Assembly (NCBI RefSeq): GCF_009765785.1
Contig: NZ_LMUT01000007.1
Location: 1 to 64,000 of the forward strand
Direction of reading: 5' to 3'
Length of the DNA stretch: 64,000 bases
DNA from: Granulicella sp. L46
Lineage (GTDB): Bacteria > Acidobacteriota > Terriglobia > Terriglobales > Acidobacteriaceae
This document shows positions 5,966 to 38,011 of the stretch, piece by piece (positions within the stretch are counted from its first letter, which is position 1; every line of letters begins with the position of its first letter). A program made the position numbers and the translations under genes. The notes below the pieces were generated by a model. The model ran no database searches. It saw only the letters and a list, made by a program, of their open reading frames with translations, and was not told the DNA's origin.

Positions 5966-7648
5966 ATGCGGTTGAGAATCGGTAAAGGTCCGTGGAGAAT
6001 GCAGTGGGGAAGGCTGGCTGCTGCGCTGCTCCTCTTCCTGTGCGCGCATGTCTTTGCCCAACTGCCCAGTCCGGTGGCCTCGCAGACACCGAGCACGCAC
6101 CCGGAGACCCACGTCGATCCGTATGGCCGTACTACGCCCAGGGGCACCGTCACGGGCTTCATTCGGGCGACGCAGCGGGGAGATTTTGCGGGCGCCACAC
6201 GGTTCATGCAAGTGCCGACGGCGCAATCTCCGGACGCGGAGCCCGTGGCTCGTCAGCTCAAAGAATTGATGGATCGGTACTATGTTCATTCGATCGAGAG
6301 CATCAGTGACAAGCCCGCGGGCAATGTGAATGACGGCCTCCCACTGGATCGTCAAAACGTGGGGACGCTGAAGATCGGATCGCAGAAGCTCGACATCCTT
6401 CTTATCCACGTACACGATGAGGAGGGGGGCCAGATCTGGCTGGTTTCCTCGGATACGCTCGCCCAGGTACCAGAGATGTATGACCTGATGGAAGAGACCT
6501 GGGTCAACCGGCTGATGCCGCGGATTTTGGTCGAACGCGCATTTCTGGGGTTCTCGGCTGCGCAATGGATCGTGTGGGCGGCTTCGATCATTCTTCCTCT
6601 TCTGCTGATGTGGTTGGTATGGCGAGTCTGTCTTGTCGCTGTTGAACGAGCAGTCGTCAATGCCTACGCCAGAGAGCGGATTAAAACATGGCTCGGCGAA
6701 ATTCGCGGGCCGATAACATTTCTTGTTCTGCTTACCTTTCATCTGCTCACGGTGCGCACGCTCGGCTTTTCGCTGAGCTTCCGACTGGCCTACATGCGAG
6801 GGGGATCGGTTCTTGTCCTCATCGGGGTGACATGGCTCATTCGCCGCGTACTGAAGCTGCTCTTTGAGCGAGCGGGCAGGGTTGCGTGGATTCATGGCGA
6901 GACGAACAGGAAATCGCTGATGCTGCTGGGCGAGCGATTGATGAATGTTTTCGTCGTCGTGGTAGCGATCTTCGCGATCCTCACGGTATTGGGCGTTGAC
7001 ACGAAGACTGCCCTGGCCGGCGTCGGGATCGGCGGCGTCGCGGTCGCGCTGGGTGCGCAGAAGTCGATCGAGAATATTCTTGGCGGGATCTTTCTGCTGA
7101 TGGACAACGCCCTGGCTGTCGGCGACCGGTGCTCGATCTCCAACCGGATCGGGTACATCGAGGACATCACGCTACGCTCGGTAAAGTTGCGAACGGATGA
7201 TCAGAGCCTGCTGTCGATTCCAGCGGGAGCGCTCGCGCAGTCGAACATCGAAAACTTCGCGACGCGCAGAAAGACGTTGATGGAGACGCGTCTGCGGCTC
7301 CGATACGGAGCGACCGCTGCGCAACTGCGCGACGTGCTTGCCAAGATTCAAGAGCTCGTCGCGAACCATCGACGAGTCGAGCAAGACACGAAGCGCATTC
7401 GGCTGATTGGCTTTGCGGAGCGAGGTATGGAGATCGAGTTGTATCTCTACGTCTTGACTGCCGACACGTTGACCTTCTACGAGATCCGCGAACAGTTACT
7501 GCTGGAGGTTGCGGAGATCGTCGAGGCATCGGGCAGCGGCTTTGCTGGGCCGACGGAGTTCGTCTACCTCGAGAGCCCAGGAGACGGTGGGAAGGACGGC
7601 GTTGCCGGTGCTCGCATCACGCAGCAACGCAATCCCGCCGAAGGCTGA
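5966..7648 (+). CDS. MscS-family mechanosensitive ion channel
   Basis: 560-residue channel of the MscS superfamily, which opens under membrane tension to release solutes on osmotic downshock. The ATG at 5966 is chosen over the GTG at 5903 because GGAGGAG lies 7 bases upstream and the product then starts with a signal peptide (LAAALLLFLCAHVFA). A periplasmic domain of about 150 residues follows, then four or five membrane helices. The pore region is ALAGVGIGGVAVALGAQ, followed by the beta domain with GDRCSISNRIGYIEDITLRS. The periplasmic part makes it longer than E. coli MscS, like the larger YbdG/YnaI group. It appears monocistronic. Confidence 0.92.
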   Translation: MRLRIGKGPWRMQWGRLAAALLLFLCAHVFAQLPSPVASQTPSTHPETHVDPYGRTTPRGTVTGFIRATQRGDFAGATRFMQVPTAQSPDAEPVARQLKELMDRYYVHSIESISDKPAGNVNDGLPLDRQNVGTLKIGSQKLDILLIHVHDEEGGQIWLVSSDTLAQVPEMYDLMEETWVNRLMPRILVERAFLGFSAAQWIVWAASIILPLLLMWLVWRVCLVAVERAVVNAYARERIKTWLGEIRGPITFLVLLTFHLLTVRTLGFSLSFRLAYMRGGSVLVLIGVTWLIRRVLKLLFERAGRVAWIHGETNRKSLMLLGERLMNVFVVVVAIFAILTVLGVDTKTALAGVGIGGVAVALGAQKSIENILGGIFLLMDNALAVGDRCSISNRIGYIEDITLRSVKLRTDDQSLLSIPAGALAQSNIENFATRRKTLMETRLRLRYGATAAQLRDVLAKIQELVANHRRVEQDTKRIRLIGFAERGMEIELYLYVLTADTLTFYEIREQLLLEVAEIVEASGSGFAGPTEFVYLESPGDGGKDGVAGARITQQRNPAEG

Positions 7649-37060: not shown

Positions 37061-38011
37061 ATGCCTGCCCCCCGCGTCCTGATCACCCGCTCCCCCCACC
37101 AGGCCTCCGCGCTCGCCGACCAGCTCCGCGCCCACGGTGCCGACCCCATCCTCATCCCCACCATCGAGCTGGCCGACCCCACCACCTTCGCCCCCCTCGA
37201 CGCCGCCCTCGCCCACCTCGACCACTTCCACTGGCTCCTCTTCACCAGCGCCAACGCCGTAGAAGCCTTCCACCGCCGCCTCACCCATCCCGCCGCAGAA
37301 CCGGGTGCCCCAGGTCTCGCTTCTGAGACCTGGGTAGTCCCGAGCGAGAATCAAGCCCCGGCAAAAATCTCTGTCATCCTGAGCGAAGGGCAGAGCCCGC
37401 AGCCGAAGGACCCCGACGCCGCCAATCCGACCTCAACCCCATGTCCCTTTCCGCCCCTAACCCTCCCGGCCAACCTCCGCATCGCAGCTATCGGCGCGGC
37501 CACGGCCCGCGCCCTCGAAGCCGCAGGCCTCCACGCCGAGCTCCTCCCCCCGCAAGCCGTGGCCGAGTCCCTCGCCGAAGCCCTCCTGCCCCACGCCCTC
37601 CAGCCCGACGGAACCCCGACCCGCTTCCTCCTCCTTCGCGCCGAAACCGCCCGCGAGCTTCTCCCCGATACCCTCCGCGCCCCAGGAGCCGACGTCACCA
37701 TCGCTCCCGCCTACCGCACCATCGTCCCCACAGAGTCCATCGCCGCCATCCGCCAACTCTTCTCCACGCGCGAGAACTGGCCAGCCGCTATCACGTTCAC
37801 CAGCAGCTCAACAGCGACCAACTTTATAGGATTACTTGAGGTTTCTAACCTAAGTCTTCCACAGGAGATCCTTCGCATCTCCATCGGCCCCATCACCTCC
37901 CAAACCCTCTGTGACCTCAATCTCCCACCCCACGCCGAGGCCGCCGAGCCCAGCCTCCCTTCGTTAGTCGCCGAAGTTGTCAAGGCCCTCACCTTGACCA
38001 AATCTTCGTAA
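37061..38011 (+). CDS. hemD: Uroporphyrinogen-III synthase with repeat-derived insert
   Basis: 316-residue HemD, which cyclises hydroxymethylbilane with inversion of ring D. The two-domain core is present: VLITRSPHQASALADQLRAHGADPILIPTIEL, WLLFTSANAVEAF, LRIAAIGAATARALEAAGL, FLLLRAETAREL, AITFTSSSTATNFI and ISIGPITSQTL. The family is usually about 250 residues. The excess lies between RRLTHP and PLTLPANLRI (about residues 78-130) and is encoded by two dispersed-repeat-like elements listed separately. Both flanking motifs remain in frame, so the protein may well be functional. Confidence 0.92.
   Translation: MPAPRVLITRSPHQASALADQLRAHGADPILIPTIELADPTTFAPLDAALAHLDHFHWLLFTSANAVEAFHRRLTHPAAEPGAPGLASETWVVPSENQAPAKISVILSEGQSPQPKDPDAANPTSTPCPFPPLTLPANLRIAAIGAATARALEAAGLHAELLPPQAVAESLAEALLPHALQPDGTPTRFLLLRAETARELLPDTLRAPGADVTIAPAYRTIVPTESIAAIRQLFSTRENWPAAITFTSSSTATNFIGLLEVSNLSLPQEILRISIGPITSQTLCDLNLPPHAEAAEPSLPSLVAEVVKALTLTKSS
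37304..37337. repeat. Palindromic repeat inside hemD
   Basis: CCCAGGTCTC (37309-37318), loop GCTTCT, and GAGACCTGGG (37325-37334) form a perfect 10-base stem with a 6-base loop. The flanking bases GGTGCC and TAG belong to a form I recognise as a dispersed unit in Granulicella/Edaphobacter-type genomes. Here it is translated within hemD as GAPGLASETWV. Confidence 0.7.
37371..37414. repeat. CTGTCATCCTGAGCGAAG-type dispersed repeat inside hemD
   Basis: The 44-base segment begins CTGTCATCCTGAGCGAAG and ends AGCCGAAGGACCCC. Units of this form (TCATCCTGAGCGAAG...CGAAGGACC) are widely dispersed between genes in acidobacterial and some other genomes. Here the unit is translated in frame as VILSEGQSPQPKDP, 36 bases after the palindromic unit. 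Confidence 0.7.

Follow-up and report, generated by a model that had tools for sequence, protein, structure and literature searches.

The window, that is, the whole 64-kb stretch of DNA that was analysed, contains on its forward strand the hemD gene for uroporphyrinogen-III synthase (positions 37061 to 38011; 316 aa), which was assigned from its ORF, a Pfam HEM4 match (PF02602, E 4e-52) and Foldseek. An extra segment of HemD was located on the same strand at 37283 to 37471, with outer limits that are approximate, using linker and protein alignments and the AF2 pLDDT. The HemD linker was found to be 222 nt in the window's own assembly (G000) compared to 51 nt in three relatives with an empty site (G013, G004 and G012), a surplus of 171 nt or 57 aa, in agreement with an earlier reading of the DNA (hereafter the sequence-only reading) according to which HemD is 50 to 60 residues longer than usual. 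The insert is flanked by a helix ending in ..SANAVEAFHRR and then by the strand ..RIAAIGAAT, and one copy each of two repeat families, A and B, was found inside the extra DNA. The part of HemD that bears the insert was placed in domain 1 by the sequence-only reading; crystallographers usually name it domain 2, even though it belongs to the N-terminal half of the chain.

The hemD frame was single and intact, with a positive coding score on both sides, and the flanks are in frame as had been claimed. No second hemD was found in a search of the whole 5.48-Mb assembly, which is 99.97% complete; apart from hemD itself, that search matched only a peptide that B encodes within an ORF resembling a glycosyltransferase. 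A broken hemD with an intact copy elsewhere was therefore rejected. Five of the seven loci that hold the nearest named hemD genes are labelled Granulicella, among them G. paludicola DSM 22464, G. sapmiensis and Granulicella sp. S156, which places the window in the Granulicella group. HemD inserts of the same kind were found in the assemblies of two named isolates, G. paludicola DSM 22464 (L118), where the insert is of family B, and Granulicella sp. S156 (L121).

An AF2 model was obtained from a shallow input of eight sequences, the HemD of the window and seven relatives (pTM 0.58). Residues 79 to 130 had a pLDDT below 50 and no secondary structure, and most of the remaining ten-residue blocks were above 80. 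When the model was searched with Foldseek, all 13 matches at E <= 0.001 were HemD structures. In the model, the insert is predicted to be disordered and the HemD core to be intact, which fits the earlier placing of the site in a loop between helix and strand. The RNA of the insert was predicted to form a strong hairpin.

Two dispersed repeat families

Family A is a REP-like palindrome of 32 bases (37303 to 37334, forward strand) that encodes GAPGLASETW. The hemD unit reads GGGTGCCCCAGGTCTC-GCTTCT-GAGACCTGGG, and the perfect 10-base hairpin seen by the sequence-only reading was recovered, with 37309-37318 paired to 37325-37334 in 10 perfect pairs. When the G000 assembly was searched with the 16-mer of A at up to two mismatches, 30 matches were found compared to 2 for the reversed pattern; 4 of the 30 had no hairpin and were dropped, leaving 26 placed copies. 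In the 25 of these that were aligned, 97.6% of the stem cells were paired, and cells with a change on both sides numbered 24 compared to 8.4 in shuffles, a value as high being reached in 0 of 500 shuffles. The stem is kept by compensatory change, and family A is a short palindrome in many copies within the 20-40 bp of REPs. It was present in 24 of the 28 genus genomes, with no match for the reversed-pattern control. Within the window the hemD copy was the only exact one; one further A-like match, at 6493, had 3 mismatches and is at about chance level.

The core of family B (37372 to 37414, forward strand) was delimited from the genome copies and consists of TGTCATCCTGAGCGAAG (37372-37388 in hemD), a short variable hairpin and CGCAGCCGAAGGACCC; it encodes VILSEGQSPQPKD, and the hemD unit continues to GGACCC, ending at 37413. 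A less conserved 3' tail, which ends in ..CCTTTCCGCC.. and encodes approximately the last 16 extra residues, was recognised in aligned copies at 37415 to 37463, so that the full extent of family B in hemD is from 37372 to about 37463. In the 24 copies aligned, out of 27 exact ones, the CCTTTC neighbourhood was conserved, with one T invariant and another nearly so. The exact 17-mer occurred 27 times in the G000 assembly and the 14-mer 47 times, compared to 0 for either reversed pattern, and 42 copies, exact ones and BLAST matches together, were placed. By the 14-mer, family B was found in 58 of 101 genomes with no match for the reversed control. Its only exact copy in the window is that of hemD. 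These genome-wide counts bear out the claim that two different dispersed families lie in hemD.

Several further features of family B were seen. All 15 of its placements in ORFs were in the sense direction (mostly VILSE.., some CHPE..) and none was antisense, while two of the three antisense frames were open in 13 to 24 of the 27 copies over 60, 80 or 100 bases. In G095 and G079, family B often occurred as inverted pairs 62 to 80 bp apart, resembling REPINs, and the G000 copies were mostly single.

The possibility that A and B form one composite element was rejected, since B lies less than 150 bp from only 2 of the 26 family A copies and the spacers differ. A placed B was found less than 500 bp from 4 of the 26.

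The hemD loop across the genus

A hemD match was found in 26 of the 28 genus genomes, and 25 loci could be read (G019 and G020 had no match and G026 a partial one). The linker was long in 5 of the 25, with 74 residues in G000, 72 in G014, 50 in G006, 45 in G015 and 37 in G009. The loop contained A and B in G000, B in G015, and sequence of a third type, family C, in G014, G006 and G009, where GG..TTCAGCC.. and GGGGCTTTAGCCCC-like stretches were recognised by eye. The linker was short in the other 20 loci, 15 of them measured by script (17-30 residues) and 5 read by eye, with 1 outgroup locus left out. The segment is therefore not an ordinary conserved HemD loop, a finding that the sequence-only reading had named as one that would refute it. 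The 30-residue linker of G022 resembles, by eye, a worn family C insert. One assembly, possibly a mixed bin, gave two hemD loci (G002:C281 and G002:C176).

A tree of hemD with the insert removed, from which 3 of 30 loci were omitted (G016 being a genus member among them), required 3 changes of insert state, 2 of which were forced by starred branches. In a RecG tree of 25 genomes, in which G012 fills 47% of the columns, 3 changes were forced (in G009, in the G015/G014/G006 clade and in G000). Such changes cannot separate gain from loss of the insert. The simplest reading is at least four insertions at one HemD loop, because the G015/G014/G006 clade combines B (in G015) with C (in G014 and G006); a single old gain followed by losses would still require one family to have replaced another. 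The earlier suggestion of a tolerated hot spot is thus upheld by three families in five of 25 loci and by at least three changes on the RecG tree, and it extends to other genes.

Elements in other genes and near Y1 genes

On the evidence of ORFs, coding scores and matches to protein families, 11 of the 26 family A copies and 15 of the 42 family B copies of G000 were placed within ORFs. The hosts of A were hemD, RecG, an Lhr-type helicase, HisRS, Tgt, a TrmJ-type methyltransferase, a geranylgeranyl-reductase-type protein, an SDR, the tail of a TatB-type protein, penicillin acylase and a membrane protein. Family B was found in hemD, RecG (two loops), ScpB, ScpA (where two copies lie on the N-terminal side of the domain and are possibly untranslated), a heavy-metal P-type ATPase, a PIG-L protein, Lhr, penicillin acylase, three PMT-type glycosyltransferases (four copies in all) and the membrane protein that also holds A, which is the only host ORF without a family match. 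These findings show that hemD is not special as a host, both families being found in other conserved genes of G000.

The two families were found together far more often than expected. There were 4 A-B pairs less than 500 bp apart compared to 0.2 expected, a number that random placement attained once in 20000 simulations, and each pair lay within a single ORF (hemD, RecG, Lhr and the membrane protein). With penicillin acylase, 5 genes carried both families compared to 0.03 expected (11 x 12 / 4700); the hypergeometric probability was 2e-11 to 4e-11, calculated on our own placements with gene length ignored. This excess supports the tolerated hot spot beyond hemD. The start-to-start distance between A and B was 68 bp in hemD and 104 bp in RecG loop 2; in the remaining three genes the copies lay 232, 298 and 1103 bp apart, the last of these being penicillin acylase. 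Pairs of B with B less than 500 bp apart numbered 4 compared to 0.16 expected.

Alignments with PDB structures were interrupted at the elements in RecG (487|576), HisRS (342|376) and Tgt (184|206). Loop 1 of RecG, compared among 7 genomes including G000, had 112 residues in G000; five relatives had 27 residues there and one had 43. For loop 2, compared among 14 genomes including G000, the length was 88 residues in G000 and 10 in the 13 relatives. Elements in frame inside a conserved gene, with empty sites in relatives, were thus found in hemD and in RecG loops 1 and 2. The B insert of RecG loop 2 was common to G000 and G004, and A was present there in G000 only, which indicates that an insert can outlast speciation. 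A third long stretch of RecG (649|712) contained neither A nor B and had 83 residues, the two measured relatives having 81 and 92, so that extra stretches are not always elements. The Tgt case of G000 is less clean than the others: its A-bearing loop has 34 residues, and some relatives that lack A have a loop at least as long. Antisense family A hairpins were found in another Tgt loop, near residue 50, in G012 (L240), G020 (L239) and G021 (L243), and the Tgt of G021 had three antisense copies 60 bp apart.

Other repeat-derived stretches were observed in the G000 proteins. The RecG gene (G000:C21:548499-551240; L102, L126) has B in loop 1, both families in loop 2 and, in a loop that precedes these, a peptide resembling family C; counted with the upstream reading, the frame has 1183 aa compared to approximately 830 in most relatives. 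Repeat-encoded segments, several of them consecutive in L077, were seen in three PMT-type glycosyltransferase ORFs (L077, L079 and L073 on C5 and C13). Penicillin acylase (L114 / L070; G000:C21:660-663 kb) combines family A, family B and a repeat 'D' in one protein, the latter as two copies of a peptide of the SSRPxRAARSGETPVF type.

Genes with the Y1_Tnp domain (PF01797), the transposase domain of REPIN/RAYT systems, were examined for neighbouring elements. Family A lay on both sides of the Y1 gene in opposite orientation at 3 of 60 Y1 loci (L172, L216 and L218) compared to 0 of 77 control loci. In G024, the copies at C1:280426 (+) and 281001 (-) surround a Y1 match at 280527-280754; one of the 2 strict A copies of G001 is separated from a Y1 match by 50 bp and one of the 7 in G022 by 142 bp. 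A count of A within 500 bp of Y1 gave no excess, with 6 of 60 Y1 loci compared to 4 of 77 control loci, two of these four being Tgt genes that carry A inserts of their own. As in REPIN/RAYT systems, family C flanks Y1 genes, on both sides in G000 and G015, and the same arrangement was seen for family A in four genomes. These findings suggest that family A is probably a REP moved by RAYTs. For family B, no link to Y1 was found within 500 bp (1 of 60 loci compared to 2 of 77 controls), and B was absent from the three Y1 regions of G015; the RAYTs found were rejected as its movers, since B is no nearer to Y1 than to controls. The only Y1 match of G000 (L125, G000:C5:1470757-1470951) lies in a frameshifted gene with family C on both sides and no flanking A or B, and gave no support to this gene as the mover of A or B.

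Origin and meaning of the hemD insert

The reading that fits best is tolerated selfish insertion: the extra part of HemD would consist of two selfish, non-autonomous palindromic repeats in one permissive loop, in-frame survivors that the protein tolerates. We give this reading a probability of approximately 80%. Family A, as a REP, would have been inserted probably via RAYT (Y1) transposases, and family B, a second dispersed hairpin repeat, would have been inserted into the same loop, transposition being the presumed route of either into hemD. The copies now seen in genes would be those that fell in frame, in a floppy loop, and left the fold undisturbed, and such survivorship would lead the same few loops to collect elements repeatedly. 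Judging from the intact gene, HemD with its insert is presumably made and active. The protein would stay functional, and the inserted peptide, presumably neutral, is most likely functionless and would decay with time.

An unlikely but serious alternative is that the insertion machinery prefers DNA beside an existing hairpin, or a given sequence, so that the first element in hemD drew in the second. It would agree with the short A-B distances in hemD (68 bp) and RecG loop 2 (104 bp), with the excess of B-B pairs within 500 bp (4 compared to 0.16) and with the three antisense A copies spaced by 60 bp in the Tgt of G021. In three further genes, however, A and B are 232, 298 and 1103 bp apart, the inserts of RecG sit in separate loops, and the hemD loop was hit by different families in species where the other family is missing from it. 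Whatever brought the elements in, the segment could since have become useful to HemD, in regulation, partner binding or mRNA structure, and have been kept for it. The open hemD frame, the RecG B insert kept in two species and the strong hairpin predicted in the insert RNA would be expected of such true domestication, which we nevertheless consider very improbable, as the insert is predicted to be disordered, differs in kind of repeat among lineages, is absent from 20 of the 25 genus members read and looks worn in G022. The term domesticated, as used in the sequence-only reading with the sense of a gained function, was accordingly not supported. The chance that the segment is an artefact, from misassembly or from a pseudogene whose frame has simply not yet closed, appears close to negligible: nothing was found in its favour, and it is opposed by the single intact ORF with a positive coding score on either side and HEM4 at E 4e-52, by the lack of any second hemD match in a genome that is 99.97% complete, and by inserts of the same kind in the assemblies of L118 and L121. 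Tolerated selfish insertion thus fits best.

Comparable elements are known from other bacteria. The passages of PMC3733652 on intragenic REPs of the GTAG and CGTC types name Opitutus terrae, Rickettsia conorii, Thauera, Xanthomonas and others, and describe REPs wholly within conserved genes, some genes being hit twice, including repair and RNA genes (uvrA, tRNA synthetases), as well as recB of two Xanthomonas species with differing REPs at about one site. The present case is similar to what is described there in having short palindromes in conserved genes, repair and RNA genes included and some doubly occupied. It differs in phylum and apparently in the repeats, and in that a single protein loop has received three families in different members of a genus, with two families occurring in common genes far above chance.

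The rickettsial palindromic elements (RPE; Ogata et al. 2000, 2002, 2005, as cited in PMC2229807) and their Wolbachia counterparts are likewise palindromic inserts that are in frame in conserved proteins and apparently tolerated. In the account given in PMC2229807, RPE occur in 19 rickettsial frames, and a guanylate kinase with an insert of this type is active with changed substrate affinity. RPE are described as 105-146 bp long and from obligate intracellular bacteria, whereas the Granulicella elements have 32 to about 95 bp and one family is probably RAYT-linked; the likeness meant here is one of kind. According to PMC12306157, REPs are extragenic as a rule, unlike the 11 of 26 placed A copies that were found in ORFs here; Granulicella aggregans appears in a table of that paper, where the search described is of intergenic regions.

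The host of the A and B elements is a soil acidobacterium. No report of in-gene repeats in Acidobacteriota was found by title or abstract, in a search of a collection with few subscription papers. The phenomenon is thus known from other bacteria, and the Granulicella cases look new.

A wider reading, which we put forward tentatively and at somewhat less than even odds, is that certain loops act as landing pads throughout the genus, so that in Granulicella and its kin a small set of permissive loops in core enzymes (HemD, RecG, Tgt, Lhr and penicillin acylase) is entered again and again by several unrelated palindromic families, which outlast speciation, form tandem arrays and then decay. If this is true, these genomes would represent an insertion scan of essential proteins performed by nature, from which new disordered segments of protein would steadily arise. 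The findings add acidobacteria to the bacteria with protein-coding palindromic repeats, which had been described in Rickettsia and some other genera. They also provide a replicated case, with several families and several species at one loop, in which survivorship and site preference could be told apart. A further consequence is a need for caution in annotation, as lineage-specific inserts in conserved enzymes of these bacteria may be mobile-element sequence and not adaptations. The repeated use of the same loops by several families and species is the part worth following.
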